In this document: one piece after another, positions 18,118-41,119 of the stretch
Layout: each line of letters begins with the position of its first letter
Position numbering within the stretch: the first letter of the stretch is position 1
Translations under genes and position numbers: made by a program
Notes under the pieces: generated by a model
Databases searched by the model: none
The model's input: only the letters and a program-made list of their open reading frames with translations
Told to the model about the DNA's origin: nothing
Assembly: GCA_029339195.1 (NCBI GenBank)
Contig: JAPTJF010000210.1
Span: 37,821 to 101,820 of the forward strand
DNA length: 64,000 nucleotides
Direction of reading: 5' to 3'
From: Micractinium sp. NFX-FRZ
Taxonomy: Eukaryota > Chlorophyta > Trebouxiophyceae > Chlorellales > Chlorellaceae

Positions 18118-18152
<35 letters not shown>

Positions 18153-18199
18153 CACCGCCGTCGCAGCCGGCGACGCCGACGTCCCAGCAGGAAAGCAGT

Positions 18200-18230
<31 letters not shown>

Positions 18231-19778: not shown

Positions 19779-20840
19779 TCAAAAGGACAGCTCGTACATC
19801 TCAATGTGTGGCGCACGGTACGCCTCTGGCAGCGCCTCCGCCGGCAGCTGCCGCACCCGGCACGCCAGCGGCGCGGCCGCCGCCGCGTCCAGCAGCGCGC
19901 GCCGCAGCGCGTCAGAGCGCGTCTCAAAGCTCAGCAGGGCGCGGGTGCGGCCGGGCGCGGCGAGCGCGCATATGGTCGCCAGCAGGGCGCTGCTGCTGGG
20001 CACGCTGCCGTCGGGGTCTGGGTAGATGCAGTCGGTGCCAACCACAAGATCAACTGGCCCAGCGGCGGTGATGGCGGCACAGGATACAGCCGCAGCCGGT
20101 TCATCCTCCCAATCCAGCCCCACCACCGCCACGCTGCCTGGCGTCGGCGTCGCCTGCTGCTGCAGCAGCTGCTGCCGCTGGTGCAGCGGCGGCAGCGGCG
20201 ACGGCGGCGGCGCCGCCGGCGCAAGCAGCCGGTTCCTGCCCGCGTTGGTGCGCCCAAACACTGTCATGGCGGGCTTGTCTGTAACGTAGACTGCTGCCCC
20301 AAGGCGTGCCAGCACGAGGCCCGGCAGGGCCATGCCGGCGCCCAGCTCGACGGCGCGCAGCCCAGCAAAGGAGCCAGGTGGTTGGGAGTCCAGGTAGGCG
20401 GCCAGCACATAGGCGCCGTCCCAGGCGCAGGCGCCCACCCTGATGCCGCCCGCGCTGCCGGGGCGCAGCGCCAGCGGGTTCTGCTTGATCGTCACCGTGG
20501 CAGGGGTGGCGGGGGTGGCGGACGCGGGTGCTCCTGCCGCTGCTGGTTCCGCTGCTGCTGCTGCTGCCGCTGCTGGTTCCGCTGCTGCTGCTGCTGCTGC
20601 CGCTGCTGGTTCCGCTGCTGCTGCTGCTGCTGGTTCTGCTGGTTCCGCTGCTGCTGCTGCTGCTGGCACTGCTGCTGCTGCTGGCACTGCTGCTGCTGCC
20701 GGCACTGCTGCTGCTGCCGCTGACGACAGCTGCACCGTCACCAAGTCTGCTGCCTGCGTCTGGGCGCGGTCCAGCCCGGCCAGCGTGCCGCGCACGTGCT
20801 GCCGGTCAACAGGGTCCCATCCCTCTATAGTAATGCGCAT
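19779..20840 (-). CDS. METTL21-like protein-lysine methyltransferase, intronless
   Basis: A single uninterrupted frame of 353 residues. The Rossmann fold S-adenosylmethionine site is AVELGAGMALPGL (about 163-174), followed by YVTD. The family motif DxxY appears as DCIY at 270-273 within LVVGTDCIYPD. The C-terminal strand region is RALLSFETR. These are marks of the METTL21/class VII-like small methyltransferases that modify lysines on chaperones and elongation factors; the target here is unknown. Residues about 41-105 are an Ala/Pro/Glu insertion coded by a GCT/GCC repeat. Lack of introns is unusual among its neighbours and could mean retroposition or a simple ancestral structure. Its 5' end and upstream DNA reappear, damaged, at 32230-32910 and 35107-35787. 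Confidence 0.87.
   Translation of the reverse strand: MRITIEGWDPVDRQHVRGTLAGLDRAQTQAADLVTVQLSSAAAAAVPAAAAVPAAAAVPAAAAAAEPAEPAAAAAAEPAAAAAAAAAEPAAAAAAAAEPAAAGAPASATPATPATVTIKQNPLALRPGSAGGIRVGACAWDGAYVLAAYLDSQPPGSFAGLRAVELGAGMALPGLVLARLGAAVYVTDKPAMTVFGRTNAGRNRLLAPAAPPPSPLPPLHQRQQLLQQQATPTPGSVAVVGLDWEDEPAAAVSCAAITAAGPVDLVVGTDCIYPDPDGSVPSSSALLATICALAAPGRTRALLSFETRSDALRRALLDAAAAAPLACRVRQLPAEALPEAYRAPHIEMYELSF
20528..20722. repeat. GCT/GCC microsatellite inside the methyltransferase
   Basis: An imperfect trinucleotide array (CTG/CCG-rich on +) codes the Ala-rich stretch of the METTL21-like protein. It is likely to vary in length between strains. Confidence 0.85.
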
Positions 20841-22420
20841 CCTGGCCTGGACGCCTTGGGCAGGATGCTACTCTGCAGGCGCACTGCCTACACTGCATGG
20901 GCCGGTTGAAGGAGCGTAGGGCATGGGCATGAGCAAGGGGCGGTAGGGGCCAGAGCACCGGTGGCGGGAGGCGGGTGGCGGCGGCAGCGAGCAGCAGGGG
21001 GCCGAAATGCAGGTTCGGCCGCCGCTGAGCCAAAGGTTTGGCCGTAGCATGACCTCTAAGCCGCGGAGCAGGTCACAAAAGCGGGCCCGCGATGTGCATC
21101 GCAACGCACCCGAGTGTTCTCCTGCACCTCTTGCACCTCTTGCACAGCTTGTAATGAAAGCGGGCGTGAGGAACAACAAGTGTGACGCGCGAAAGGCAGC
21201 TTACAGGCTGGCGGCATCAGCCGCCGCCGCCGCCGGGGCCAGTGGACTGCTCGCTCCTCCCCATCTCATGGCGTGTGCTTGGGGCCAGTGGGGGCCGCTC
21301 CAGCTGATAATAGGAGGTATTGCAATGCTGCTCGGCATTTCCAGTTGCATTTCAGCGTGTTTCGCATTCTTTTTTGGGGTCTCCCCATACCCGCTTGCCG
21401 TCACCATGAGCTGCCTTCAGCTCGCTGGTCAGTGACCTGAGTGTGAAAGCCAATGCATTAAAGGGTCACAAGTTGCCAGACCATGCCTAGTGTACAAATG
21501 GGAGACGTGAAAGCGCTCAGCTCAAACAGCTTACTCGTCTGGATTTGGAGGCGTGGCGAGGAGGGGGCGCAGCGAGGGTGGGCGGGGGTGCGGGGAGGCC
21601 GGAGGCGAAGGCAGCGGGCGCGGGTGGGGACGGCCTTGGTGGGGGACGGGAGGGCCGCGGGGGCGGTGCGGAGGTTGCGGCAGTGAGGAGAAAGCCGCCG
21701 TGGCGGTGATGGCGGTTGGGGTGGGGCTGGCAGTTGGATGAACCGTGAAGCTGCGTGACGCAGCCGGCGGCAGGGGACTGGGCAAGTGGTGCTCTTGAGC
21801 TGAGGATGCACATGTGTTGGCGGCGTCAGCAGGACCGGTGATCATGGCAGCAGAAGCCGCATCCACCGTGAATACCTTGCTAGTTACCCCATTGCAGCAG
21901 TGCAAGGCATTATCTGTCCATGAAGAAAAGGCAACAGCCTGTGGCAGCACACCTTGCACCAAAAGCCCCTGGCAGGGCTCCGCTACGTTAACCAAAGACC
22001 TGGCTGCCGGGTGTTTCGTAACATATTACATATCCAGACGCATAGGCATATGATAGGTGCCTCGACTTGTGGACAAGGAAGAGACGGCAGGCATGACGGC
22101 TTCACCTGGACCAATGAGACTAACAACGCTTAGAGGGGTGGGCCCTTGTTGGGGATCGCGACCGGTCGCGAATGCAGACATGGAAGAGCATGAAGGTGGG
22201 GCACACAAACGAGACAGAGGTCAGGGGGCACGCACGGGGAGATGTATGGGGAGCTCGGACAATGACGAGCGTGCTGTGGTTGTTGGCAGCACGCTGCAGC
22301 GAAGAAGAGGCAAAAGGTACCCTAGAGCATGGGTCAAGGTGACCAGCGGATGTAGCCAGCGCGTTAACGTTGCAGCAGCCCATGGTCGATCCAACGCCAG
22401 GCTGCGCGGTGCATTGGCGC
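20841..22420. other. Intergenic: methyltransferase promoter and chitinase 3' region
   Basis: These 1,580 bases separate two minus-strand genes. Bases 20841 to about 21250 are the presumed methyltransferase promoter and are the parent of the copies at 32373-32910 and 35250-35787. A 142-residue open frame at 21007-21435 (+) has a hydrophobic end but no recognisable family. The remainder holds no supported gene. Confidence 0.6.
22026..22030 (-). terminator. TGTAA poly(A) signal of the LysM-chitinase gene
   Basis: TTACA on the plus strand (TGTAA on the minus) lies 391 bases after the chitinase stop, in a locally AT-rich stretch. Confidence 0.4.
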
Positions 22421-25400
22421 TTAATCCCTCCTGCAGTCCTCGTCGCGGCGGGGTGCCTTGAAGCCTTCGCAAGGGTCGTTGGCGGAGTCAAAGATGTTGC
22501 TCAGCAGCTCGCCTGCAGGCATGGGACACGCCGGGAAGGCAGGCAGGTGCCAGGCTGGCGTTTTATCCCTCCAATAGGCCCAGCTGATGCCACCTGGAGC
22601 CACGCTTGCACAGCTGCACAGCAGTGCTGCGCTGGTACCGTGATGCACTTGCATCACCAACCAGCCACGTGGGTGCACCCAAAGCAACAGGCGGGCGGAA
22701 GCACGGCCTCAAGCGCAATACAGTCTAGAGCAAGGTCTGGGCCAGGCATGTGCGCTAGGGGATCATGTGAGCTGTGGGGCGCACCTTGGTCGTCGGTGTC
22801 AGAGTCCCACATCATGACGCCGCTGATCTCGCGGGAGCGGGCGTAGCACATCTTCAGGCGGTGGGTCTCTGGGGTGTCAAAGCCCACCCAGTGTGCGGTC
22901 CACTGCAATGGTGCCCTTCCGCTGGAGCAGCCTGCTCTTGATCTCTGCGCCACAGGCAAACACAGAAGCAGGCGGGGTACGAACTGAATGAAAACCCTCG
23001 AGCATGCTGGCCATCGGCGCGCATACATGCTGTGCTGCACGGCCCCCTGCTGTGTCTGCTGGCCGTCCTGCCCCCCACCCCCCACCCCCCCCACCCTCAC
23101 CATACCACGCCATCGTGCCGTTGGTCTGCGTGCACTCCCCACGCAGCGCAGTCATGCCGGTGGCAAACGAGTCGAGCGCGGCGCCATATCCAGGGCTAGA
23201 GGGGAAGAGGCCCAAGGGGTTAAACAAGCTGTTCCAGACTGTTCCGCCGCCGCTGCCTTCAGGCACGGGCACGCCGCGGCCATACGACGCCAGGCCCAGC
23301 ACGAGCTTCTCCTTTGGCACACCATTGTCAAGGTACGCATCCAAAGCCCCCGCTATGTCCCAGTTATACCATTTGCCCGTGGCGGAGCAGTCCAGCACAG
23401 GGGCGTGGCTGTTCACCTTCCGGTAGCCCTGGCTCCAGTCAAAGGCGCCGTGATAGTCGTCTGCGGGTGGCCACGGGCGGGAGAGAGGGGCGATACAAGG
23501 CATCAGTGGAAGGCGATCGCGACTTGCGGCAAGTACTTCACGCGAGCTGCTAAGACTCCTGCACCTCGCAGCCGCTGTGCAAACCGGTGACAACTTGTGC
23601 TGAGCCTGCCCTCCACTGCACGCAGTGGCACACGTCCCCAGGCGCCTGCCCTTCGTGTTGCTGCCCCGCACCATGCCTGGCGCCTTGTCGCCTGCCGCGC
23701 CCGTCCCCCCCCCCCCCGGGCCCCCCCCCCCTTTCCCCCCGGCCCGCCTCACATGTCATGAGGTTGATGAAGTCGACACAGTCAGCTATGCTGCGCATGT
23801 CGACGTGGCGCGATGGGGTGGGTGTGGCGCGCAGTGCAGCGGTGAGCAGCATGCGGGGCTGCTGGGATTCGGTGGCCTCCCGCAGCTCCCGCATCAGCGT
23901 CATGAAGTCGTCCACCTCACTGTAAGTCTCACGCTTGTTCTCGAAGTTCGGGAACTCCCTGCGACGGCGGCATGAGTGGGCGGGTGGATGGGGGGAGGAG
24001 CCATGTGGGAATGGATGGGGCCGGTGAGTGGGCAACTACACCTGTGCCCTTACAGTCGTACACGCCCCCACTTTCCCCCCACCCTTCCAGGTCCAACCCC
24101 TTACATCGGTGCATCCCCCGCCTCCTTCCGCTAGCCTCCCGCCGAGCGAGGCAAGCACCAGGCGCTCACCAATCCATGTCGATGCCGTCAAACTCGTACC
24201 GCTTGGCGTATGCGATGACTGAGTCTATGAAGCGGGCACGGGAGGCGCGGTTTCTGGCCATGGCGGGGAACACTGCAGCGGGGGAGGGGTGGCACCAGGC
24301 GTGGCTGTGTAGCAGCAGCATAGTACATGGGCACCGGCCCCACTTGCTTCTGCGGCTCCGGACCCAGAAGCAGGTGAGCGGCAGGACAGGGTTGTGTGCG
24401 GCCGAGGGAAGCGCCGGCGTAGGGCGCAGCGATTGCATGGGCTTGCCCACACCGCTTGTAATGCCGCTGCCAGTGCTTCCGTGTGGCCAGGGCGGCCCGC
24501 AGCAAAGCCCACTAGGATTCACACGGAAGGCATTCTCGGACACAGTACGGCGGGGCAAGCAGGCAGGCAAGCAGGCGGGCGGGCGGGCGGCCCGCGGCAG
24601 GCAAGCGGGCGGGCAGGCAGGCAGGAAGGCAGGCAAGCATTCAAGCGGGGGGGGGGCAGGCAGACAGGCAGGCAGGTGGGCGGCCGAGGGAGCGAGAGAG
24701 GGGGGAAGGGGTGTGCACGGGAGGCATTCACTCCGCCCACCTTCGGAGGCGTTGGTGCCCTTGAACGCCTCCTCTGACCGGGAGAAGCTCCACCCCCCAA
24801 TAGAGATGAGCGTCTGGAGCTTGGGGTTCTGTATCTTGAGGTCCTGCAGCAACGGTGATGGTGGGTGGTGTGCGCTTGGCAAGCACACAGGCGGTATGGG
24901 GAAGGGGGGGCACAGCCCCCTCACAAGCCGCAGGCGAATGGGTGCGGGGGCTGCCGGTGGTGCACCCTGATTTGCTTGGCTGCCTGATTGCGGCCAGGCC
25001 TTTTCTCCCTCCCCCCGCCCCAATCTTCCCCCACCAACCGCCGTAGTTTGCGCGCCCTCCCCTCTTGCCGGCCTCTCCCCGCCTGCCTCCTCCCTGCCTC
25101 CCCTCCCCTCGGCACCCCCGCACCCGCACTTGCGCCATCAGCTGCGGCGCATTCTCCTCCACATGTTCCACTTCGAAGGTTCGGTTGTTCAGCTTGGCAA
25201 ATGCAAAGTTTACGTGAGTGGCAGCTGTAGCATTGATGTAGCCCGGGGTGTAGGCATACGCGTCGCAGTGAGCGGGGCGGCCGTTGCTGGAGCGCCTCCA
25301 CTGCGCATAGTCTGCGGCCGGGGGAAGGGGGCGGGTTTTACAAGGGAGGTGGAACAGGGGACGGTGCAGTAGCTGTGGCAGTGGGGCGCACGCATCATGC

Positions 25401-28400
25401 CATGTTGCAGCAAGAGCTGTAAACCGCAACTAAGCGGGGGGTGGGTGGGGGGGGGTGGGTGGGGGGGCGCAGATTGCACGGTGGGGTGTGCGGGGAGGGT
25501 CCTCAGGCTGGCCGGTGCCCAGGGGGCAGAGCCCGTCCTTGGCACACACCACTGCATCCCTCTGCCCGCACCCACTACTCCCTCACGGCACTGTGCTGCA
25601 CCGCCTCACCAGTGGCATAAACAACCACCCTGCACATGGGCGGGAGGGGAAGGAGGAAAGGGCAGGTGAGCATGTGCAGCGCCGCAACGTATGCTGCGCT
25701 CACCAGCGGAACCCCTTCAAGGCTGATGGCCGCATCGTGCGCCCACTGGGTGGCACCAGCTGAACGGTCTGGCACGCCCGCTGCTCTCCTGGTTGCCATG
25801 GCAGTCTGCCGCGCCCACTGCCCTCCCGCTGGTCCCCGCCTCCAACCACCAACCTCAGCCCACCTGCTGCCACACCCCACCTGTTGATTGGAGTCTTTGC
25901 AATGTTCGCCTTGTCCTGCGCCCTGCGGCACAGGTCGTCCGAGCCGTCGTCCACCGGATTAACGGTGAACAGCCTCACCCGCCTAGAACCAGAGCTCCAG
26001 AAAAATACTAAAGGAAAGCTGGCTCTTGCCCTCCGTAAGCCTGCAGAACGGCCTCTGCAAACCGGCCAAAGCAAGCGGGGGCGCCGGGTTTGTGTGTGTG
26101 GGGGGGGGGGGTTGAGGGGGGGCGCAAGAGGGCGGAGCGCAAGGCAGGGTCGGCCCGGCAGCCAGGGGTGCCGCTTGCGAGCGGTTGTGGCATTCCGTAC
26201 CTGCCGCAGTGCATCAAGCATGGGCCTAGCTGGTTGGCCACGCCGCCGGCTGGGCTCACCTTCCGGCACTCGCCGTTCTCCTTCAGGCACAGCTGGAACT
26301 TGTCCTTGGGCTCGTCATACAGTTGGAGGGTGTACCGAAGCTCTGCACACACATACACACGCACACACGGATGGGTTAGTTTGTCATGCGCACACACACA
26401 CACATTACACACACACAAGAGCAGGCGGCATGTAGGGGTCAGGACATTGCTGGCCAGCCCGCGGAGGGCTTCTGCAAGCACTGCCCAAGCTGCGCAACAC
26501 AAGAACCGCAGCAGCAGCAGCAGCAGCAGGCACGGCCGCAGGTGGGCTGCCGGCAGTGCCCCGCCCCCTTGCCGCGACGCACCACCTCTAGAGATCTCCT
26601 CCCCACCCCGCTCCCCGGGCCTGCTTACCAAACTTCACCACAATGATCTTCAGGCTGGCTGTGACCTCCAGGGAACCCTGGAAGGCATAGAATCTGAGGG
26701 TGGACGGAGGGGAGGCGGGGTTGCCAATCGGCAGCATTGGGGTTTTGGGTAGGGTTTTGGGTTGGGGTTCACACTCACAGCGTACCCACCTGCTCGTGAG
26801 GCGGTACCCACATGCTCGTGGGGTGTGCCGGCATACGCAGGAGCAGCGCAGGGCGTGCTGCCCTGCTGCTGTGCCAGCACGAAACGGACACACCACAAAC
26901 CCGTCGGCCCTATGAGATTGGGCCCCATGCTCACTCACTTGATGTCTACGGTCAGGCACATCTGCATGCCAAAGAACTCCATGAGGTCTTGTATGCCCAC
27001 CAGGCCGAGGCAGAGGGACAGGCTCCCACCCATTTGATTCTCAATCATGAGGTCCTTGGTCGAGTCCAGCGTAAAATCCAGGTGCTGGCACTTGCCGTCA
27101 ACATCGCACACCTCCCCCTGTGCCAGGTGGATGGGCGGGCACACCGACCCAGGGAGGAGCAGTGGGCGGAGGGCGGGCGAGGGAGCAGCAATCAGCAGCA
27201 TGTCGCGTGTGGGGGCGCGAGGACGCGCGCAGGACGGTGTGGGGAGTGATTACGAGACCTGTGGGGCTGAGTGCCTCCACGGCACGGCCGCAACCCCCCT
27301 CCCCACCCGCCTTGCTCCCGCCTTGCCCGCTCGCCCCCCATCCCAGGCCCTGCTTCACCCAGGTTTCAGCCGCTGGCACTCCACTTACTTTGGTTGGGAT
27401 CTTGTTTTCCTCGATGTTCCACTCTGCCCAGGGCTGGCAGATGTTGATGGCGCCCTCCACCTTGGCCTGCAACCCGCTGGGGCCGAGCGGGATGGTGGCG
27501 GCGCACGTCCCTCCGGGCAGGCACAACTTCCTGCCCTTCGCCGCACCCTTCGCAAAGCTCTTCCAGAACGCAGGGTTGAACAGGTTTTGGACGCCGCACT
27601 CAAGTTGCTGCAGGCTGCGCCGTGCATGTGAGTCCTGCTGCGCGGCTGCCCACTCCGCTGCCGCCCTGCGCTTGTGGGCTGCCACGGCGGCCTGGTAGGA
27701 GGGGTCGGCCTCCAATGCGTCCCTAACCTGCTGCTCCAGCAGCCGCCGCCCGCTGCCACTGTTGGTCTGCTCAAGGAAGGCCTTAAACCGGGCATCGAAC
27801 TCAACTTGCACCCTGGAGTCGCAGTGCAGGAGGGGGTGGGTGGCGGGGTCTCCGCACACGCAGTCCACCAGCGGAGCCGGCATAGTGCCGTTACGGAATG
27901 AAGCACACTTGGAGGGGCGGTCTGTGGGTGGGGGCGGGGGGGGGGAGGGGAAGGGGAGAGGAGGCGCGGTTGTGTTGTGTTGTGGGGGGTGGCGGGGCAG
28001 AACACCCAGAGGGGCAAGCCTTAAGGGCAACACAGCAAGGGAGACACCGAAGGGTGCGAGTGAGTGAGCTATGCTGCGGTATCGGCCCCCGATCAGACAA
28101 CAGGGTGCCGCAGGCGTGTAGCCTGCGCCTTGGCATACTGCGCAGGCCATCTGTGGCATGCAGAGCCATTTAAACCGAGGGGCTCTCTTTGCCGTCGTCT
28201 TGCTGCTGTTTGATGCTGCGCCGTACCTCACCACCCCGCCCCTCACCTGTTTCATAAGACGCTGTGTAGGCAGCAAAGCTGGGGTTGCCCCGCTGCTCGC
28301 GCAGCACCGCCAGGCGGCCAGCCTCGGAGGCCCACAACCTGCGCAGCGTCAGCTGCAGCGCGTCGCGGCCCTCGGGGGAGGGGGCCGACTCGTAAGCCTG

Positions 28401-31400
28401 GGCGGCAGGGGCCACACTGGGCGCATCGCGCACGAACAGGCGGGCCACGGAGAGGAGCTCGGCATCAATGGCAGGCTGGGTGCCGTTGCCGGGGGCGGAG
28501 GCGCAGGGCGCCACCAACACCTTCTGCCCGGGTGTCAACTTGTCGATGCCCTGCAGGCATGGGAGCGGTGCGATGTGGGGTACAGGTTGGTGGGGTAAGC
28601 GTGGGGCTGGCATCACGGTCTAAAGGCCTTCAGAACAGTGCAGCTTGGCGGCACCTGGAGCAGGCAGTCAAGTGGTAGGAACGCAGGAGTGGAACAAGTG
28701 CGTTGCGTTGCACCGCATTGCACCCATGCAGGCGGATGGGTCTGGCTGGTGGCATGGGGATGAAGTGCCACACACAACCGGTGCAGCGCGCCCCAGCGAG
28801 CATAGGCGACGGGCAGAGGGACCGCCAGGTTTGGTTGCGGCAACACCCCGGCGTTGCCATCTCAAGCACAGGCGGTACACATACACGCAGTCCGGAAGAA
28901 GAGGGGTGTCGCATCCCACGGGGTGTGAATTGTGCCGCCAAACGTGTTGCTGGGCAGATCTCGGAGCGCTGGTGCAGCGCACGCTTTGCGCCGAGCTTGG
29001 AGCAAGCGTGGGCAACCAGCAGCATGTAGCCCACGGACACCTGCCTGCTGCTGCCAGACCCACGGGCGCACCTTGGTTGCCAGGGCGGGGTTGAGGGCCA
29101 CTAGGTCCACCACGGTGGTGGAGTATGCCTTAGCCACGCTCCACAGGAAGTCTCCCGCCACCACGGTGTGCGTCTTGCAGTCGCCGGCGGGCACGCACAC
29201 GGGGGCTCCCGGCGGCAGCGGCATGGCCAGATCGGCGGCATTATTCAGCACCAGCAGGTCGCCATACGGCACGCTGAGCTGGGAGGACAGCTGGGCAATG
29301 GAATCGACACGGGTGATGAGCGAGATGACCACCCCCTGGCAGCGGTCCTCCAGGGGTGGCAAGGGGCCGGGGAGGACGTCAGGGAGGGGGAGGGGGGCGA
29401 TGGGGTCGCGGGGAGGTGGCAAGGGGCGCGGCCCCACGCACACCGCCTGGCCCAGCGCCAGGGTGGAGCAATTCTTGTTGAGCGGCAGGTTCAGCTGCCA
29501 GAACTCGTCCATGGTGAGGCCGTAAGAGGAGGCGATCTGTAGGGTGGGTGGGTGGGTGGGTGGAGGAGGGGCGGGGGGGAGCAGGTGTGCCTGTGCGGAG
29601 GGCGCTCCAACGAGATGCAGACGCTGGGCATGCTGTGCCGTTGGGTGCGCCGGGCACCATGCACTAGGCCCGCACAGCTCAGCAGATCTCACAACACGAC
29701 TTGCCTTAAAGCAAAACTCGCCAGCAGCCACGACGTGCTGCCGGGTGCACTCCAGTGTGCCCGGTGGGGCGGGCGGCGGCGGGGGCTGCGCCGGTGCCGG
29801 GGGCGGCGGCAGCAGGGGCCCCACGCACAAACGCTGGCCAGATTGAAGCGCTGCGCAAGAGCGGTTGAGGGCGGGGTTGATGGCCCAGAATTGATCCATG
29901 GTGAGCCCGCGGTCAGTAGCAACCTGCGGAAGAGAGGGAGCAGGCCCCACATATGTTGCGCTAGCAGCAGCAGGGGTTGGTGTGGGCACAATGCCAACTC
30001 CGAAAGACGTGACCCGTCCAGGCCGGGTGCACCCCCCCTGAGCCAGCCAGCTTGGCAGCATGACTAACTCGTGACGTGCGGGAGGCGCACACGAGGCGGG
30101 GTTCGCCTAGCAGGCGCATGTGGAGCTGGTGCCACGGTGCCGTGCAGCGCCCCACTCACCTTATAGCAGAAGTCTCCGGTCACCACCGTGTGCCACTGCT
30201 GGCATGCCCAGGGAGCGGCAGGTGGTGAAAGGGTGGAGGCGGTGGGGGGTTTGGGGCTGGGAGGCAAGGGTGGGCGAGGGCTGGGGGGTGGAGTGAGGGG
30301 AGCGGGGAGGGATTGGGGCGGCCCGGGGAGGATGGTGGGGGGCAAGGTGCGAGGGGCAGGGGAGGGAGGAGAGGTGCTGGGGGGTCTAGTGGTTGGCAAT
30401 GGTGGGCTGAAGGAAGGTGGGGGGGTAGGGGGCCTTAGGGTGGGTGAGGGAGGCGGGGGCCTTGGAGCGGGTGAGGGAGGCGGGGGCCTTGGAGCGGGTG
30501 AGGGTGGCGGGGGCGTAGGCGAAGGTGAGGGAGAGGGGGGCCGTGGAGGGGGAGGCATGGGAGGGCGAGGGGTGGGAGGGCTGGGAGGGCGCGGGGACGG
30601 AGGCAGCGGAGGAAATGGTGAGGGTGGCAGGGGAGGGCGGGGTGAGGGCGGCGGCGGGGGCCTGGGGGAGGGCGGGGGCGAGGGCAACGGAGGCAGGCAC
30701 AACACCTGCCCCACCCACAGGTTTGTGCACGCACTGTTGATGGACGGGTTGAGTGCTGTCAGCTGCTGCACTGTCAGGCCCTGTGCCTGGGCAATCTGCC
30801 AGCAAGAGCTGCCAGCTTGCACGGTAACGGTGCGCCCCGTGGTGCAGGTCGCCGCCAGCGCCAGGCAGAGCCGCTGCCCGGGCTGCAGGCGTGCGCAGTC
30901 CAGACCAGGATTGAGGGCCTGGAGATCGGTAACTTGCATGCCGTACTGCTGGGCGATGCCCCAGCAGAACTGCCCGGAAGCAACCGTGTGATCCCGTGTG
31001 CACCCCTGAACACACATGTGAAGCAAAAGGGGGGGGGGCAGGAGAGGGCGCGGGGTGAGTGCCGGTTGCCGAGATGAAGGGTGCACAGAAGTGATCACAA
31101 GCCTGCCGCCAGCTGTCACAGAGGGCTGGCGCAGCCCATTGCCACACTGGCAGCGGCCCATATGTGCATCCGTACCTTGGGAAGGGCCGCGGGCGTCGAC
31201 GCCAGGCAGAGCACTTGGTTGACCCACAGGTTGCTGCATGCGCTGTTGATGGAGGGGTTCAGTGCTGTCAGCTGCTGCACCGTCAGACCCTGTGCCTGCG
31301 CAATCTGCCAACAACTGTCGCCGGACCGCACGGTGTAGGTGCGGCTGCAAGTCTGGCCATGCTGCACAGAAGCATGGCCGGGGAAACGGGACAATTACAA

Positions 31401-31584
31401 AATATGAGCAAAGCGCTTCCTCCGTAGTGTGTGAAGGCAGGCAGGCAGGCAGGCAGCGCAGACTGATTTCAACTCGTGAATGTTGCGGCCGGCCATCGCG
31501 CCGGCCGCATCGCGCCAGGGGCTCACCGCCCATCCGCGACGAGGCCAGAACAACCAGCACCAATCCGATTGAGACGGCGCGCAT
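22421..31584 (-). CDS. Secreted multi-LysM, proline-rich GH18 chitinase
   Basis: Nineteen exons: 31584-31527, 31361-31176, 31005-30160, 29923-29705, 29536-29072, 28550-28247, 27921-27389, 27117-26939, 26693-26629, 26342-26201, 25994-25881, 25629-25610, 25311-25130, 24843-24741, 24272-24170, 23958-23753, 23460-23101, 22931-22785 and 22512-22421, about 1,440 residues. MRAVSIGLVLVVLASS is a signal peptide. Five clear LysM modules follow (for example YTVRSGDSCWQIAQAQGLTV) with two divergent ones; a Pro/Ser hinge of about 160 residues separates the third and fourth. Residues about 600-1035 are unrecognised. GH18 starts at VVVYATGDYAQW and has LISIGGWSFSRS, the catalytic FDGIDMDWEFP and YDYHGAFDW. 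LysM binds chitin or glucosamine polymers and GH18 cuts them, so wall remodelling or daughter-cell release is likely. All junctions are in phase except exon 1 to 2. Intron 4 is GC-AG. Confidence 0.85.
24541..24700. repeat. GGCA/GGCG-rich minisatellite in a chitinase intron
   Basis: Tandem GCAGGCAGGCAAGCAGGCGG-like units fill part of the intron between the LISIGGW exon and the catalytic exon. Confidence 0.7.
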
Positions 31585-32910
31585 GGTTTCGCCCGACGTA
31601 GTCAATAAGTTTTTGCACAGGCTCCAGCCTGGCGCCAGCCGGCCGGTGTCCTCGATGCGGCACAAAAGACCGGAACAGCCCAGGGGCCATCGCAGCCGTC
31701 TAGACTCGAAATGGCGGCTAGATAGCGTGGGTCGTGTTGCAACTTCCTCGCAACTTCAACCGCTTGTGCCCCCTCATCCGACGCCGCGGCGGTTTGCGTT
31801 TAGGGTCTACAGTCTGACTGTAGCCACTGCACAGACTGCCAATTCTCTGAATGCGATAGAGACCCCTGGACAGCAAGGGGCTACCAGGAATGCAAGCAAC
31901 ATACTCTGTGGCGGCGACGCCGCGCGGCGCAGCCCACTGGCAAAGCCTGCTCCACTGGTGGAAGACCAGCGCTTGAAGTGACTCTCATACTGATTGCCAT
32001 ATCACAGGCGGAACGGGCACTACTGTAGAAGCGGGTGGCCCTGTACATACTTGAGCGCCTTCGGCGGCATGGGTGCGCGGCGCCTGGCTGAGTGTGGGAC
32101 TGGGTCGACTGGCAGAGGAGGCTGGGTGCGGCTGGCGCCGCACGACTGGCAGAAGTGAAATGAGACCTGGCGGACCTAAGTGCCAGTGGCGGCGCCTGGT
32201 GCTTCCACTGCCGGTCAACCAGGTCCCAGGTGCTGCTGCTGGCTCCACTGCTGCCGCTGACGACACCTGCATTGTCACCAAGTCTGCTGCCTGCGTCGTG
32301 GTGCAGTCCAGCCCGGCCAGCGCGCACGTGCTGCGGATCAACAGGGTCCCATCCCTCTACCCTAATGCGCATCCTGGCCTGGCCGCCTTGGGCAGGATGC
32401 TACTCTGCAGGCGCACTGCCTTACATGGCATGGGCCGGTTGAAGGAGCGTAGGGCATGGGCAGCAGCAAGGGGCGGCAGGAGCCAGAGCACAGGTGGCGG
32501 GAGGCGGTGGTGGCGGCAGGGAGCGGCAGAGGGCCGCCCCCGCAAGCCCTGTCGCCGATGAGCGCCATCGCTGGCCGTTGCATGATTGCTGGCCCGCGAG
32601 GCAGGTCCCAAAAGGCTGGCCCGCGATGTGCATCGCTTGCAGACTCTGCAAACCCACCTGGGAGGGAATTTCCTTGCGCCTTCTCCAGTGTCTAACGAAG
32701 TAAGTGGCGCGCCGACGGCCTTTCAAATGAGAGGAAGAACAGTTGCGAGGGGCAGCTTACAGGCTGGCGGCATCAGCCGCCGCCGCCAGCGCCGGCGCTG
32801 GTCTGCCCATCCCGCTGCTTGCAAAGCTTTTCGTCATGCTGCCCTCAATGTGCAGTTGCATCAGCGACTTACAAAGTGTGCGCCAATTGGCAAATTCTTG
32901 CCAGCAGAAG
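30665..32910. repeat. Duplicated segment, copy A
   Basis: This 2.25-kb block is repeated at 33542-35787, offset by 2,877 bases. It covers the LysM gene from the proline-rich region through the start codon, the upstream region, and the METTL21-derived fragment. Only about three substitutions were found by eye, for example 30926 T against 33803 C, which changes VTDLQALN to VTGLQALN. Confidence 0.9.
32230..32372 (-). pseudogene. Fragment of the METTL21-like gene 5' end, copy A
   Basis: The minus strand starts MRIRVEGWDPVDPQHVRA, matching MRITIEGWDPVDRQHVRG of the methyltransferase at 20840. A 5-base deletion then shifts the frame; the next match (LAGLD...TQAADLVT) is in another frame. Similarity ends after about 45 codons, well before the methyltransferase fold. 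Upstream DNA to about 32910 also matches the methyltransferase promoter. It is a dead gene fragment carried with its promoter. Confidence 0.8.
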
Positions 32911-33541
32911 CTCATGCACATGGTGGGCCTGAATAATGATTACAGCTGACCAGCTCTTGGGAAGCTTGCGCGCATGGAAGAGCGAGGGAGCTAAACTGTG
33001 AAAGTGGCGCTTTTGGTGACTACGGAAGTGATGCTGGAGGGAGCTAGAATATGGAATGATGCTGGGGGTCTACAGGGTGGACGGTGTGGGCAGTGCGCAG
33101 AGGTGATGAAGTGTTCCTTCACAGTGGTTTAGGCAGGCTTGGGTAAACGGCCAACATGTCGATACTGGGGTGCTCAACGCAGGGACGGAGTGGAGCAGCA
33201 ATCTTGGAAAGTATTTGCAGAAGCTGTGCAGCTGGGCTCAGCATGCCACGGCTGCCGCTGGCAGCGCCGTGGACACACGAGGGCGCGCTCACCAGACCGA
33301 CCCACGCGTGCCACGTGGCGGGGGCGGCCTGCGGGGGGGGGGCCCACGGCGGGACGGCGGTGGGCGCCTCTGGGCAGCAGCGGCATCCCTGGGGGCAGGC
33401 GGCTTGCGCCTGGGTGGCGGCGGAGGCGACCGCGGCTTAGGGGGCAGTGGGGATTTCAGTGGTGAAGGCGGGGGTGGTGGAGGGCGTTTGGGTGAGGGGG
33501 GCGGAGGCCGCCGGGGAGGTGGGGAGCGCTGCGGGGGCCGG
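32911..33541. repeat. Diverged copy of the hydrolase-gene 3' end, joined to the LysM gene
   Basis: This segment aligns with about 35990-36500, the 3' end and downstream DNA of the hydrolase gene. Shared blocks include GACCAGCTCTTGGGAAGC, CAGTGCGCAGAGGT and CCACGCGTGCCACGTGGC. It is clearly less alike than the flanking duplicated block and lacks about 190 bases near 35800-35990. Confidence 0.75.
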
Positions 33542-34461
33542 GGGGAGGGCAGGGGCGAGGGCAACGGAGGCAGGCACAACACCTGCCCCACCCACAGGTT
33601 TGTGCACGCACTGTTGATGGACGGGTTGAGTGCTGTCAGCTGCTGCACTGTCAGGCCCTGTGCCTGGGCAATCTGCCAGCAAGAGCTGCCAGCTTGCACG
33701 GTAACGGTGCGCCCCGTGGTGCAGGTCGCCGCCAGCGCCAGGCAGAGCCGCTGCCCGGGCTGCAGGCGTGCGCAGTCCAGACCAGGATTGAGGGCCTGGA
33801 GACCGGTAACTTGCATGCCGTACTGCTGGGCGATGCCCCAGCAGAACTGCCCGGAAGCAACCGTGTGATCCCGTGTGCACCCCTGAACACACATGTGAAG
33901 CAAAAGGGGGGGGGGCAGGAGAGGGCGCGGGGTGAGTGCCGGTTGCCGAGATGAAGGGTGCACAGAAGTGATCACAAGCCTGCCGCCAGCTGTCACAGAG
34001 GGCTGGCGCAGCCCATTGCCACACTGGCAGCGGCCCATATGTGCATCCGTACCTTGGGAAGGGCCGCGGGCGTCGACGCCAGGCAGAGCACTTGGTTGAC
34101 CCACAGGTTGCTGCATGCGCTGTTGATGGAGGGGTTCAGTGCTGTCAGCTGCTGCACCGTCAGACCCTGTGCCTGCGCAATCTGCCAACAACTGTCGCCG
34201 GACCGCACGGTGTAGGTGCGGCTGCAAGTCTGGCCATGCTGCACAGAAGCATGGCCGGGGAAACGGGACAATTACAAAATATGAGCAAAGCGCTTCCTCC
34301 GTAGTGTGTGAAGGCAGGCAGGCAGGCAGGCAGCGCAGACTGATTTCAACTCGTGAATGTTGCGGCCGGCCATCGCGCCGGCCGCATCGCGCCAGGGGCT
34401 CACCGCCCATCCGCGACGAGGCCAGAACAACCAGCACCAATCCGATTGAGACGGCGCGCAT
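33289..34461 (-). CDS. Chimeric secreted LysM x3 protein with a proline-rich tail, no chitinase
   Basis: Exons 34461-34404, 34238-34053 and 33882-33289, about 279 residues. The signal peptide and three LysM modules are the same as residues 1-183 of the LysM-chitinase because they lie in the duplicated block. After QVLCLPPLPSPLPSPRPP the sequence switches to the Pro/Arg-rich tail of the neighbouring hydrolase, ending RPPPPRGTRGSVW. The final TGG TGA overlaps a perfect GTGAGC donor, so the frame could continue by splicing, although the best downstream acceptor would rebuild a TGA. The result is a small secreted chitin-binding protein with no hydrolase domain, like plant-pathogen LysM effectors or wall lectins in layout. 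Expression is not known. Exon 1 to 2 has the same phase problem as the parent. Could be a recent non-functional by-product. Confidence 0.65.
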   Translation of the reverse strand: MRAVSIGLVLVVLASSRMGGEPLARCGRRDGRPQHSRVEISLRCLPACLPSHTTEEALCSYFVIVPFPRPCFCAAWPDLQPHLHRAVRRQLLADCAGTGSDGAAADSTEPLHQQRMQQPVGQPSALPGVDARGPSQGTDAHMGRCQCGNGLRQPSVTAGGRLVITSVHPSSRQPALTPRPLLPPPLLLHMCVQGCTRDHTVASGQFCWGIAQQYGMQVTGLQALNPGLDCARLQPGQRLCLALAATCTTGRTVTVQAGSSCWQIAQAQGLTVQQLTALNPSINSACTNLWVGQVLCLPPLPSPLPSPRPPQRSPPPRRPPPPSPKRPPPPPPSPLKSPLPPKPRSPPPPPRRKPPAPRDAAAAQRRPPPSRRGPPPRRPPPPRGTRGSVW

Positions 34462-35787
34462 GGTTTCGCCCGACGTAGTCAATAAGTTTTTGCACAGGCT
34501 CCAGCCTGGCGCCAGCCGGCCGGTGTCCTCGATGCGGCACAAAAGACCGGAACAGCCCAGGGGCCATCGCAGCCGTCTAGACTCGAAATGGCGGCTAGAT
34601 AGCGTGGGTCGTGTTGCAACTTCCTCGCAACTTCAACCGCTTGTGCCCCCTCATCCGACGCCGCGGCGGTTTGCGTTTAGGGTCTACAGTCTGACTGTAG
34701 CCACTGCACAGACTGCCAATTCTCTGAATGCGATAGAGACCCCTGGACAGCAAGGGGCTACCAGGAATGCAAGCAACATACTCTGTGGCGGCGACGCCGC
34801 GCGGCGCAGCCCACTGGCAAAGCCTGCTCCACTGGTGGAAGACCAGCGCTTGAAGTGACTCTCATACTGATTGCCATATCACAGGCGGAACGGGCACTAC
34901 TGTAGAAGCGGGTGGCCCTGTACATACTTGAGCGCCTTCGGCGGCATGGGTGCGCGGCGCCTGGCTGAGTGTGGGACTGGGTCGACTGGCAGAGGAGGCT
35001 GGGTGCGGCTGGCGCCGCACGACTGGCAGAAGTGAAATGAGACCTGGCGGACCTAAGTGCCAGTGGCGGCGCCTGGTGCTTCCACTGCCGGTCAACCAGG
35101 TCCCAGGTGCTGCTGCTGGCTCCACTGCTGCCGCTGACGACACCTGCATTGTCACCAAGTCTGCTGCCTGCGTCGTGGTGCAGTCCAGCCCGGCCAGCGC
35201 GCACGTGCTGCGGATCAACAGGGTCCCATCCCTCTACCCTAATGCGCATCCTGGCCTGGCCGCCTTGGGCAGGATGCTACTCTGCAGGCGCACTGCCTTA
35301 CATGGCATGGGCCGGTTGAAGGAGCGTAGGGCATGGGCAGCAGCAAGGGGCGGCAGGAGCCAGAGCACAGGTGGCGGGAGGCGGTGGTGGCGGCAGGGAG
35401 CGGCAGAGGGCCGCCCCCGCAAGCCCTGTCGCCGATGAGCGCCATCGCTGGCCGTTGCATGATTGCTGGCCCGCGAGGCAGGTCCCAAAAGGCTGGCCCG
35501 CGATGTGCATCGCTTGCAGACTCTGCAAACCCACCTGGGAGGGAATTTCCTTGCGCCTTCTCCAGTGTCTAACGAAGTAAGTGGCGCGCCGACGGCCTTT
35601 CAAATGAGAGGAAGAACAGTTGCGAGGGGCAGCTTACAGGCTGGCGGCATCAGCCGCCGCCGCCGCCGCCGGCGCTGGTCTGCCCATCCCGCTGCTTGCA
35701 AAGCTTTTCGTCATGCTGCCCTCAATGTGCAGTTGCATCAGCGACTTACAAAGTGTGCGCCAATTGGCAAATTCTTGCCAGCAGAAG
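33542..35787. repeat. Duplicated segment, copy B
   Basis: Partner of 30665-32910 at an offset of 2,877 bases. The only other differences noted are near the start (G to A in the proline-rich part) and at about 35665 (GCC for AGC in a GCC run). Such identity, introns and intergenic DNA included, implies a very recent event, gene conversion, or an assembly artefact. Confidence 0.9.
35107..35249 (-). pseudogene. Fragment of the METTL21-like gene 5' end, copy B
   Basis: It appears identical to 32230-32372, including the frame-breaking 5-base deletion, so the deletion came before the 2,877-bp duplication. Confidence 0.8.
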
Positions 35788-36282
35788 CGCATGAACCTAG
35801 ACAGTATGATGGGGCAGTGATGAGGGTGAGAGGGGCGGGAGAGCGTGCAATTGAATGATTGAGGGTGTGAGGGGTGTCAGTGATGAGTGTGTCAAATGAT
35901 TGGTCAGTGTTGGGTGGGCACGGAATGCTTGCTATAGATCCACGGAGGCCTCTGGGGCAACTCATGAAACGGTGGGTGAAAGCGGTGGGCCCGAACAACA
36001 GCAGACCAGCTCTTGGGAAGCTGGCGGGCGCATGCAAGGGCAACAGTGATATTGGAGGGAGCTACGGTGTGAAAGGTGGCGGAGGATCTACAGGGATGTG
36101 CAGTGCGCAGAGGTCAGCTAGTGTTCTACCGCAGGCTGGGGCGGGCGGCCAGCATGGCGGTGCAGGGTGCCCAACCAAGGGAGGACGGAAGCAGCGAAGT
36201 TGGAAAGGCTTTGCAGAAGCCGCGCTGCTGTGCACAGCATGATGCAGCTGCTGGTGGCAGCGCTGTGGACTCGAGGGCGGGC

Positions 36283-39200
36283 TCACCACACAAACCCACG
36301 CGTGCCACGTGGCGGGGGCGGCCTGCGGGAAGGAGGCGGCCTGCGGGGAGGCGCGGGGCGTGTCTGGGCAGCGGCGGGCCTGGGGGCAGGGGGCCTGCGC
36401 CTGGGCGGCGGCGGAGGGGACCGCGGCTTTGGGGGCGGTGGCGGTGGTGGGGATTTTGGCGGGGGCGGGGGCGGGGGCCTGGGTGAGGGGGGCGGAGGCC
36501 GTGGGGGAGGAGGGGAGCGCGGCGGGGGCGGGGGTGAGGGGCGAGGAGGGGGTGGGGCTGGCGGGGAAGGCAGTGGGGGCGGCGGGGATGGCTGTGGCGG
36601 TGGCGGGGAGGGCCGTGGGGGCGGCGGGGAGGGCCGTGGCGGTGGGGGAGGTGAGGGACGAGGAGGCGGCGACGGCGGTTGGGGTGGGGATGGCGGCGAA
36701 GGTGGCTTGGGGGGTGCCGGCGGCAGAAGGGTGGGGTAGGTGCGGTTCATGGTGAGCTGTGCCAGGTTGTGTACCGCCAGGCGGGAGGCGAGGAACCGCA
36801 GGTCGGCGGTACCGTTTGACTGCAGCCAGGCCAGGCAGGGGCGCACGTAGTCGGCGATGCCCTCGTGCCATGCAAAGGCCACGTTCATGGCTGCATGGCA
36901 GGAGGGGGAGGCAGGGGGCCAGGTCTGAAGGGGTGGAGAGTGTGCAGGCAGGCAGTTGGGGCTGTTGAGCGAATGCGCGCACTCGATGGGGTGCATGGGT
37001 GCCTGGCTGGCAAGGCGGGCATCTGGGCGCAACACAAATGCAGCGCCTGCCCTGCCTTGCCCTGCGGCGCCTGCCTTCTCGCGTCCCACCGCCCAACCAC
37101 CGCCCAACCACCACCCGCGCGCACCCACCCTGGTACACCGCGCTGCGGTCTGGCAGCAGGCCAAGCGTCTGGTCGGCGGCCCCCTCATCCATGTGCAGCC
37201 AGGGCATGGCCTGCATCAGCCTCTGGTTCCACTGGTACAGCGGGCTGCTGGTGTTCTGCTGGGCAGGCAGGGGGCGGGCAGGTGGTCTAGAGTGGGTACC
37301 TGGGCGGGCAGCTGGGCGGGCAGCTGGGCTGGCAGGGGCCAGCGAGCAGGCAGGAGCGCCTGCACCTGTGGCTGTGGCAACACACCCTTGGCCATGCAAG
37401 CGCGCGACGCTGACAGGACCAGCACAGGTGTGTCATGCTCCCAGGCTGGGCACCTCGCTCATTGCTCAGCGTAGCACCTCGGCCCTGATCAGGTGCTGGG
37501 CACCTTGCCTCCCTGCGCACCTTGACCCCCACCCGCGGGTCGTCCCTCAGCCAGCCGCTGCCGTCCAGCACACCCAGCTGCTGCAGCCCCTCCACAATGG
37601 CGGCAGACTGCGCCGGGGTGATGACAGGCGAGCGCTCGGAGAACCAGGTGGCGTTGATGGGGCGGGAGGGGGCCTGCCAGGGGAGGAGCACAGGCACACG
37701 AAGGCGGGGTTACCCATGGGCTTTGGTGGGGTGGACATCTGAATGCCGGGGCTAAGGAATAGACACAGCGGCAGGCCTAGAAGAGACAGGCAGGCCGACG
37801 GGCGGGCAGGCAGGCGGACAGGGAGGCACACAGAGGGGTGGACAAGCGGGCAGGCCGGCACGCCGGCGGGCGCTTCAGCAGCATGGCAGGCTGCACGGGT
37901 GCACAGCAGTGCAGCACACGTGGCATGGCCCCACCTCCAGAAAGTCGCTGTTGATGCCGTATCTGCGCAGGGCGGGCACGTTGGCCTGCACCCTCTTTGC
38001 GGTGGCCAGGTCGCGCTGCAGGCAGGCGGGTGGCGTGGGGGAGGCGGGCGGGCACCGTGGTGTGATGCACTGGTTGATGCACGTGCCAACATGCGGGTGG
38101 TACACATGCGCACAGCAGTGCAGCCCACCGGATGCTGCAAACCCGTGCTCATGAACACGCATCCCCTCCCGCCATTCTGGCCCCACGTGGCACCCCTGCC
38201 ATCACGGGCGGTGCGCCCACACACCTGCATCTGCAGGAATGCGACGGGCGGGAAGCCGGGGAAGCGCAGCTCCCCCCGGGAGTTGAGGAGGCCCCACGAC
38301 TCCCACTCCTGGGCATTCACCTCTGCACCAGCATTGGCACATGGAGCAGAGGGGGTGTGGATGCCGGGGGTGGACGCAACCTGGCGGTGCATGCATGCAT
38401 GCATGTGCATGGCGGTGCTGCCGTGGACAGTGCAGGCTGCAGTAGCTCAAATCGAGGGCAGCGGGCAGGGGGCAGGGGGCACATGGGCGATGGGCAGGAA
38501 ACAAGGGGACAGTGGGCGGGGCCGCGATAAGTAGTGAGCAGGGGGCACGTGGCCGTCCACCCATGGCAGCCGGCTCACCAGAGACCATGCCAGTCACATT
38601 GAAGTTGTAGCTTGACGGGGCTGCACACATAAAACACACACAAGTCGCGACAGGCAGAATGCCATGTCAGCAGTCGCAGAGCAGGGCAGCTGTTGGGTGG
38701 AGTGGGCGCGCGTCCCTCCCCTTCCCCCCCTTGCTTGCCAGGGCTGCCCCAGCCGCGGCCCTCCCCTCCCGTGCCCACATGCAGTGCCAGGGCTGCCCCA
38801 GCCGAGACCTCTTCCCCTGCCCGCATGCAGTGCCGAGGCTGCCTCCCGCCCTCACATGAGAGGATGGTCCTGGGCATCCTGGAGGCAAAGCCGGCGCCGG
38901 CAGACACGCCAAACGTGTACACCGGCTTGGATGTCAAATTTTGCATGGCCAGGAAGGTCTGCACAGGCAGGAGGCAAGGCAAGAACGTGATGTTGTTTGC
39001 AGGCATTCCTTGTGTGGGTTGGTGTCAAAAGGCGCCAGTCTGGGGAACCAGGGTTGGATTGATGAAGGCGCGGTGCCTGACCATGTGGTGGGCAGGGTCA
39101 CTGGAGTCAGCGGCAGAGCGCAGCAATTGGCAGCCAGGCTGAGCATTAAGCGGCCGGGCAGGCGGGAGGCAACGCGGGGCGCACAGGCAGGCACATGGAG

Positions 39201-41119
39201 GCCACAACAGCTAGGGGCTCTGCAGCCAGGCAGCGCAGCGGCCAGGCAGGCAGCACACCCAGCCCGCACCCGTGTCCGGCCCCGTCCCCCCCCCACCCAC
39301 CCCGTCCCACCTACCGCATGCCACACACTCGACACCCGCAGGGTACATGCATCACACAGACAATAGTGTGACACAAACAGTGCTGAAAGCTGCACTCAAT
39401 TTGGTGGCGGCGCCCCTGCCCGCTGCGCATCCGTGGCCTGAAAGCAGGGTGTGAGTGAGGTAAGGGGAGCAGCCCCCGGGCTGAGCTCCCTCCCACCTAC
39501 CCACCTGGATCACATTGGGCGCCTCCGTCTGGTCTGCGGCGGCGTTGGAGCTGAAGCAGCCGGTGGTGGCGTTCTTGGAGGCGGGCACCAGCACAGCGTA
39601 GCCCCAGGCCAGCCCCTGCTTGACGTGCGCCACCTCCTCGGGCAGCCCCTGGTGGAGGGGGGAGGACGGGTGGGAGGGGAGGGCGGTGCTGTTTCAGGTA
39701 TGGAGATGGCAGGCTAGTTCAGAGGTCCACTCCAGTCAACTTGGAGGGGCAAGGGTGTAGGCATGCCCTCTCAGCAATACCCTGAAGTAAGTCGCAACCC
39801 AACCCTTGGTGTGGGGTAATCAGCTGGCACTGACCAGGCACTCTGGGCAGGTGGCGGGGTCGTAAGGCCAGCTGTGCGAGGGGGCGTGGCTGCAGCCGTG
39901 GAAGAAGACCAGCTGCGGGGGGAGGTGGGTGGGGGGGAGCAGGAGGGGCGATTTTGGAAGGCGTGGGGCGCATGGGAGGAGGTGGGGTGATCAGAGGAAG
40001 GTCGTGGCAGGGAGGGTGGGGGGAGGAGGGGGGAGCACGGCACCGGGGCCCCTGGTGGGGAGGGAGCCACGCTACGCTGTGCACGGCTTCTGCCTTGAAT
40101 CACCCAGGAGGCGGCATGGTGGGGCGCATCTGGCTGGGTGGAGAGAATGCCTGGGCATGGAAGAATGCCAGCTGGCAAGCTACTGGTTCATGCATGGGGC
40201 GGCCAGCCACCACTGCACACGGCTGCTGGGCCCGGTCCTGCTGCTGCGCCTGCTGCGCCTGCTCACCGTTCCCACCGGGTCCTCCGGTACCTGCAGGCGG
40301 GAGCAGATAGACAGCATGGCAGCGTTGGAATCCCGAGTACATACAGTCAGGGTTGTGCGACTGCCTGCCACTGCTAGTGCAAACAGTTGGACAGAGATCC
40401 GTCTGCCCGGCATGGCGCCACCCGTCGTCTCACGGCCCGCAACCGAGGGCAGGCAGCACGCAACCTGCCTGGTAGTAATGGTCCCTGTCATACTGTCTGA
40501 GCCTGCCTGGCCGCAGTCCCCTGTTGGAGGGTGCATCAACCACTGACAACTGCCAGCTGGCCTGCAGGCATGACGTGGGGGGGCAGTGGCGGAAATGGTT
40601 TTTGAGGCATGTTGGAACGCCCCACGACCCCCCCCCTGGTAGGCGGGCTAGGGCTTGCAGAAACGGTGTTGAGGAGACACATCATTTTTGAGTTTCGGTC
40701 TCTCTTCTGAGACACGCCCAGCTCATGCCCAGCACGGGGGAGCGCACCGCACCGCCGACACCTACCAAGGCGGTCGCCAGTACCCTCGCGCCGACGTCGG
40801 CGACCGCCGCCGGTGAGGCGTTGAGCTGGGCAACGGCTGCGGCGGCCGCTGAGGATGCAGAGGGTACCCGGTCCTGGCCAGTCACGATGGCCCTCGATAT
40901 GGAAGTGAAAGTTTGCAGCATCTGGGCCGCGAGGGCGGCCTCGGCTTTGGTGCCCATGGGCACTGTCAAGCCGGTCAAACGCAATTCAGGCGTGAGTTCC
41001 GAGGTGCAGCCGCTGATCGCAAACACCAGAAGAGCCAGAAGCAGAGGCCGCACTGGGCGCGCGGCGGTGGTAGGGCCCAGCGCTTGGCTGCGCCGAGCGC
41101 CCCGCCCGCAGCACAGCAT
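36283..41119 (-). CDS. Secreted alpha/beta-hydrolase-like protein with a proline-rich C-terminal tail
   Basis: Eleven exons in phase: 41119-40766, 40290-40267, 39912-39835, 39648-39505, 38958-38856, 38620-38579, 38322-38225, 38015-37935, 37673-37521, 37258-37129 and 36890-36283, giving 604 residues. A signal anchor (VRPLLLALLVFAISGC) precedes an Ala-rich stretch. The fold marks are LVFFHGCSHAP (oxyanion loop), GLPEEVAHVKQGLAWGYAVLV, a nucleophile elbow GVSAGAGFASRMP, and AFAWHEGIADYV late in the domain. This resembles an uncharacterised plant alpha/beta-hydrolase family; substrate unknown. The last 190 residues are Pro/Ser/Arg-rich, like wall hydroxyproline-rich glycoproteins, and end RGTRGFVW. 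As in the chimeric gene, TGG TGA overlaps a GTGAGC donor. Its place beside the LysM-chitinase suggests a wall role; that is inference. Confidence 0.78.

Follow-up and report, generated by a model that had tools for sequence, protein, structure and literature searches.

A LysM gene with a hydrolase-type proline tail beside a LysM-GH18 chitinase in Micractinium: a putative proline-tract chimera whose halves differ in apparent age

Results

The locus described here lies in contig C210 (JAPTJF010000210.1) of the green alga Micractinium sp. NFX-FRZ, whose genome assembly comprises 66.07 Mb in 838 contigs. The window, i.e. the whole stretch analysed, covers 64,000 nucleotides (C210 bases 37821-101820), contains no N and has a G+C content of 66%, and its genes appear spliced. 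Going leftward along the minus strand, a hydrolase-like gene with its stop at 36283 is followed by a chimeric gene (34461-33289) and by a LysM-GH18 chitinase (about 31584-22654). Gene structures were derived from splice signals and from collinearity with a paralogue of the chitinase on contig C216; the features are collected in Table 1.

Table 1. Features of the locus, in window coordinates
Feature	Position	Strand	Basis or remark
Older module copy: 5' end of an intact methyltransferase gene (19779-20840) and upstream DNA	20691..21235	-	PF10294, E 7.7e-11
Relic of the hydrolase proline tract, decayed	21555..21782	-	164/215 aligned bases identical to 36504-36735
Parent 1, LysM-GH18 chitinase: signal-like exon, LysM1-3, Pro linker, further LysM, GH18 part	22654..31584	-	Ends approximate
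Chitinase proline-coding tract, left edge of the copied block	30200..30680	-	30421-30684 versus 36382-36657, 66.6%
Near-identical block, copy 1 (LysM1-3 and signal exons with upstream spacer)	30675..32911	-	3 mismatches in 2237 bp
Methyltransferase 5' end and upstream fragment within spacer 1	32231..32787	-	Matches to the older module; reading frame kept for about 17 codons
Chimera 3' flank, old copy of that of the hydrolase	32942..33288	-	33027-33288 versus 36045-36282; 32942-32973 versus 35998-36029, 91%
Chimeric gene	33289..34461	-	Signal-like exon 34404-34461 (consensus donor), LysM1 exon 34053-34238, LysM2-3 and proline-tail exon to the stop at 33289
Proline tail of the chimera, hydrolase type	33289..33541	-	Aligned to 36283-36532
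Junction interval, hydrolase-like/chitinase-like proline DNA	33528..33551	-	Junction alignments
Copy 2 of the near-identical block	33552..35788	-	Alignment to 30675-32911
About 200 bp at the block edge, without counterpart in copy 1	35797..35997		Alignment and genome search
Parent 2, end of the hydrolase-like gene: 3' flank, stop at 36283, proline tail	35998..36740	-	Self-comparison, translated comparison
Body of the hydrolase-like gene	36741..40000	-	Exons roughly placed, right end approximate

The chimeric gene is delimited by two blocks that lie in one register in a self-comparison of the window. The first is formed by the LysM front and its spacer (30617-32919 with 33491-35796, 99.1%) and the second by the hydrolase tail and its 3' flank (33027-33549 with 36045-36540, 75.1%); translated comparison was done with tblastx (single-hit statistics, matches >40 bits). 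Pfam, with positions converted from contig coordinates, places PF01476 LysM modules at 34080-34214, 33739-33867 and 33568-33702 in the chimera and at 31203-31337, 30862-30990 and 30691-30825 in the chitinase, where LysM is above the Pfam cut-off. As for a catalytic domain, Pfam gives only LysM, in two stretches, in the open reading frame (ORF) 33289-34542, and the third LysM lies in the separate LysM1 exon. The chimera ends in RGTRGSVW* at 33289 and the hydrolase in RGTRGFVW* at 36283, and among nine listed genome matches to the hydrolase C-terminus (150 of 797 candidates scored) only these two reach its last residue. The parents are adjacent and on the same strand, the junction in the tail is in frame and the introns appear to be kept, as judged by splice signals and the C216 paralogue.

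BLAST and Pfam confirm the order described in an earlier note on this DNA, i.e. chitinase, second LysM front with a hydrolase tail, and hydrolase, all on the minus strand. Likewise, the claim that the chimera carries the proline tail and 3' DNA of the adjacent hydrolase is borne out by the corresponding C-terminal ends and by the identity of 181 of 238 flank bases. The novel junction had been put at about 33400-33560; there is a join in this interval, and the alignments narrow its position to about 33528-33551. Chance similarity between proline tracts was considered as the source of the tail match and ruled out; the match exceeds proline low complexity because the homology continues across the non-coding 3' flank.

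The two halves of the chimera have diverged very unequally from their counterparts. The copies of the near-identical block differ at positions 30926, 32788 and 32789 (3/2237, 99.87% identical) and the non-coding spacer alone at 2 of 1327 bases, whereas 57 mismatches in 238 aligned bases and 5 gaps separate the 3' flanks of the two tails (33027-33288 versus 36045-36282; Fisher p about 4e-57). A single tandem duplication predicts equal divergence of both halves, which is not what we find. Judged by these divergences, a single exchange at one time cannot account for the complete history of the chimera. At least one further event is needed because the front looks almost new while the tail looks old, and presumably there was later copying over the front, because selection would hardly hold non-coding spacer DNA at 99.8% identity if a flank of equal age falls to 76%. 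Thus, the crossover between proline tracts proposed in the earlier note holds for the DNA-level chimera, the join in proline-coding DNA and the expected order, but not as a complete history, and its view of the unit as one duplication is contradicted.

Identity drops sharply at the edge of the block, from 99.9% to about 75%, and in copy 1 the block and the old homology are separated by about 30 bp (32911/32942), at the indel of about 200 bp. No direct mark of gene conversion was seen. In a genome search with 35790-36300, simple repeats skipped, the first 194 bases were covered by no other match. Left of the block, at 30654-30674, 2 of 21 bases differ, which is above the block's own rate but falls in low-complexity DNA. 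The base at 30926 is derived in the chimera, which has Gly where the chitinase and C216 have Asp, while 32788-32789 is derived in the chitinase copy; from there onward, the older methyltransferase module matches copy 2 and not copy 1.

The very high identity across 2.24 kb would also be expected if a single real front had been drawn twice in the assembly, or if two haplotypes had been placed in tandem. However, the stretch between the copies (query 32920-33560) is single in the genome, with the next best match at 75%, and the only full-length or nearly full-length genome matches of the block are the two C210 copies. The diverged inter-copy stretch and the three copy-specific bases, in a window free of N, make an assembly duplication unlikely, and we regard an artefact of either kind as highly improbable.

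Between the tails of the chimera and the hydrolase, 204 of 250 aligned bases are identical and the single gap is of 3 bases; in the 3' flank, the gaps between the two are of 8, 12, 1, 1 and 2 bases. Over 87 tail codon pairs (stop included, up to 33552), the differences are distributed 10/14/25 over the three codon positions (chi-square p 0.025), with a synonymous divergence (dS) of 0.38 and a nonsynonymous divergence (dN) of 0.15 (dN/dS about 0.4); the last 48 codons alone give dS 0.32 and dN 0.11. This in-frame divergence suggests, with modest support, that the tail was translated throughout. The coding evidence is modest in that the tract is of low complexity and its first codons may belong to the chitinase side of the junction.

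A kept frame is equally what a tail belonging to a full hydrolase would show, and the chimera could also be recent, the 2.24-kb LysM front and spacer having been copied through the proline tract over the front of an old, coding second hydrolase. This scenario accounts for the near-identity of the front, non-coding spacer included, and matches to the hydrolase C-terminus do exist elsewhere in the genome (twice on contig C25, on C67, and twice, weakly, on C141). By contrast, a reciprocal exchange would give two near-identical tails, and none were seen; only by chance would the copied piece end at most about 30 bp from the old tail homology; and a self-comparison of the window (E<=1e-6, matches >60 bp) shows the hydrolase body (36741-40000) in a single copy. 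Taken together, we consider a recent origin rather unlikely.

The front itself has a reading-frame problem. With its consensus donor (GTGAGC), exon 1 (MRAVSIGLVLVVLASSRMG...) ends in phase 1, while LysM1 requires phase 0. The signal exons 34404-34461 and 31527-31584 are identical in both C210 copies and share this phase-1 consensus donor, whereas the corresponding donor in C216 is in phase 0. In-frame joins of exon 1 to LysM1 are possible via weaker donors, e.g. GTTGAA at 34350, in a scan covering exons of <=60 codons. Where the chimera had been credited with the signal and three LysM modules, Pfam supports LysM1-3, while the signal is made doubtful by the phase of exon 1 at its consensus donor. 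Chitinase and chimera share this problem equally, and the phase change may be real, a sequence error, or overcome by splicing. If it is real, the front could be decaying in both genes, with neither making a secreted LysM1, and this would be compatible with the other histories considered here. The difference in donor phase from C216 points in this direction, as does the sole coding difference between the copies, which replaces an Asp common to C216. On the other hand, an in-frame join is available via a weaker donor, and the LysM exons of C210 and C216 are constrained (pooled dN 0.16, dS 0.73, 171 codons), although these values are averaged over the whole separation. Decay of the front in both genes thus appears rather unlikely to us.

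Candidate poly(A) signals of the TGTAA type lie downstream of the chimera at 32940 and 32869, but TGTAA occurs 24 times on the minus strand across the window.

The locus also contains an older repeat structure, at 20691-21782, that was absent from the earlier note's account. There are three modules in which a methyltransferase 5' end is followed by a hydrolase tail; the chitinase separates the first from the second, and the LysM front the second from the third. Therefore, the exchange would have taken place inside an older repeat array. The spacer fragment matches the older module at 83.6% (32231-32636 versus 20691-21102) and at 95-96% (32745-32787 versus 21189-21231, extending to 21235). The relic of the proline tract aligns to the hydrolase tract with eight gaps in 215 bases (1, 1, 8, 1, 4, 1, 12 and 2), seven of which are not a multiple of three, and its BLAST score of 89.7 bits was reached by 0 of 200 codon shuffles (highest 62.6). 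The frame is lost in the relic and kept in the tail of the chimera.

The DNA upstream of both LysM genes (32231-32787 and 35108-35668) contains the methyltransferase 5' end and its upstream region (source 20691-21235), and is perhaps a captured promoter.

Such an array would also allow a fusion by deletion. In this case, the whole chitinase and the methyltransferase-5'/hydrolase-tail module would have been duplicated in tandem, and a deletion from the proline tract of the second chitinase to the tail downstream of it would have removed the catalytic end of that copy. Some 0.9 kb beyond the stop of the remaining chitinase lies a tail relic in the same orientation, so that the substrate for such a deletion is present in the array. 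However, this route takes one event more than an exchange and still requires later homogenisation, and the self-comparison detects no second GH18 part in the window; we judge it quite improbable. A recent duplication of the whole chitinase together with its downstream relic was ruled out, as the relic at 21.5 kb and the tail at 32942-33549 are not close copies of each other, and no match between the two is listed.

The assignment of the chitinase parent is based on LysM and on GH18 matches below the curated cut-offs: PF00704 in one exon ORF (E 1e-5, 25.8 bits, cut-off 29.6) and the NCBIfam family chitinase ChiD in another (28.9 bits, far under the cut-off of 750). Exons with ...DGIDMDW and EFPNF are adjacent, and in our reading an intron would join them into DxxDxDxE, which we take to be the GH18 motif. 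The C216 paralogue (C216:17754-25095), a second LysM-GH18 chitinase with one front, is collinear with it exon by exon and is an old gene duplicate. It cannot date the event because it has one LysM front and because no hydrolase match was found on C216 within 15001-35000 of the 99843-base contig.

The name of the second parent combines the earlier note's label with the motifs HG and GVSAG in its translation, which presumably mark a hydrolase. When its exons were joined in a crude, guessed way, neither a Pfam family (E<=1) nor a PDB sequence (E<=10) was matched. A first protein search was dominated by proline words (7982 candidates scored, 26 matches) and uninformative, whereas a search with the first 60 residues of the C-terminal exon gave three matches among 8 candidates. 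The one match among these that names an organism, the relative P0029 from Micractinium sp. CCAP 211/92, is 76% identical over 85% of this piece and itself has one NCBIfam match, far under the cut-off. Viral contigs, scanned twice (67 and 13 pattern matches), yielded no confirmed relative.

A paralogue of the hydrolase C-terminus at C25:211391-211771 has an open frame ending in KTVG*; because of this ending, the proline tails of the hydrolase family differ in their ends.

Searched against PDB, the LysM part matches nine sequences, which are LysM domains of chitinases, of bacterial cell-wall endopeptidases (e.g. LytE) and of Ecp6. Among them are 'Chitinase A' (5bum, E 2e-12; 4pxv, E 9e-8) and 'Chitinase, lysozyme' (5k2l, E 6e-7; 5yz6, E 6e-6), which we take to be Pteris and Volvox proteins, as well as the bacterial LysM proteins LytE (8i2e, E 3.5e-12) and 4uz2 (E 3e-8). 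Because the bacterial LysM proteins match as well, this ranking leaves the ancestry unfixed. A protein search with the LysM part gave 46 matches among 760 candidates; those with a named organism are from fungi and none of the 46 bears an algal name, although unnamed matches may be algal.

Elsewhere in the window, two exact direct copies of 73 bp (53725-53797 and 53806-53878) lie eight bases apart in the self-comparison.

Discussion

Based on these data, we suggest a history in two steps, to which we give an even chance: an old exchange between proline tracts would have made the chimera, its tail would have stayed coding, and its LysM front would recently have been homogenised with the chitinase copy. 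In this model, the proline-coding tract of the chitinase recombined, long ago and inside a tandem array, with the tract of the neighbouring hydrolase-like gene, duplicating the LysM front, the spacer and the hydrolase tail. The order, the junction and the flank homology are present in the DNA; the exchange itself we infer. The divergence of the tail, about a fifth to a quarter, would then have built up without loss of frame. Later, the LysM front and 1.3 kb of upstream spacer would have been homogenised between the chitinase and the chimera, up to the edge at the 200-bp indel, either by gene conversion or by a cycle of expansion and contraction. We invoke homogenisation because identity falls so abruptly, from 99.9% to about 75%, at this edge. 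In agreement with this history, a 22-bp piece at the edge of copy 1 (32920-32941) shows a weak trace of old homology to the 200-bp stretch, its score being equalled by 18 of 1000 shuffles, and the longer stretch 32912-32950, which includes known homology, gave 33 of 1000.

Several observations weigh against this model. In both C210 copies, splicing exon 1 at its consensus donor to LysM1 would shift the reading frame. Both signals at the edge of copy 1 are weak. The relic is an imperfect control for the kept frame of the chimera's tail: it derives from a different part of the tail (36504-36735), with an overlap of about 29 bases with the chimera's part, and gave no alignment with the chimera's own tail. 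Moreover, the relic is 76% and the chimera's tail 82% identical to the hydrolase, and the gaps of the relic fall in low-complexity DNA. The old and spacer copies of the methyltransferase module (126/142 bases identical in the coding part, 221/261 upstream) are less diverged than the tail flanks (181/238), which is a misfit with a simple order of events. Finally, this order is a reconstruction, and recent copying of the front onto a gene with an already old tail is possible.

A stronger version of the two-step history would be that the fusion is long-lived, with the shared front kept identical to that of the parent chitinase by repeated gene conversion while the borrowed tail evolves separately. 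Lectin and parent chitinase would then undergo concerted evolution, and proline-coding DNA would be a recurrent joining site of the array. On present data, we hold this version to be distinctly unlikely.

Depending on the splicing of exon 1, the product of the chimera would be a secreted three-LysM protein with a basic, proline-rich tail and without a catalytic domain. According to PMC4392113, LysM modules bind carbohydrates that contain N-acetylglucosamine (GlcNAc). The product might hold GlcNAc or chitin-like polymers uncut at the cell surface, wall or matrix, and the label of a free chitin-binding lectin or effector-like protein is a prediction of this kind. The reading as a secreted lectin is weakened because of the frame problem in exon 1.

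Chimeric genes of this type are a known kind of event. For instance, Sdic of Drosophila reportedly arose by tandem duplication, and as in such chimeras the parents here are adjacent, on the same strand and joined at the DNA level. In the Micractinium gene, however, the halves are of very different apparent age and the join lies in proline-coding, low-complexity DNA. Effectors of the Ecp6 type also have three LysM modules and no enzyme domain, and the Ecp6 structure 4b8v is matched at E 2e-5, but the chimera has a long, basic, proline-rich tail and is not fungal, and its binding is putative. The LysM proteins of the fern Pteris and of Volvox are chitinases, for example PrChi-A of Pteris, which is described in PMC4392113, whereas the chimera has no catalytic part. 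The arrangement that comes nearest is known from Trichoderma, where, according to PMC4392113, LysM effector genes adjoin subgroup C chitinases, with Tal6 beside tac6. There, as here, a non-catalytic LysM protein is encoded beside a LysM chitinase. However, that system is fungal, while in Micractinium the LysM part is nearly identical to that of the neighbour and the proline tail comes from a third gene, and an effector role is only putative.

If the two-step history is correct, the locus would show how a LysM chitinase can give rise to a free LysM protein next to it, the arrangement reported for Trichoderma in PMC4392113. It would also mean that a fusion gene can look newborn although it is old, because one half has been kept young by homogenisation. 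Dating chimeric genes from the identity of one parental half would then fail at this locus.

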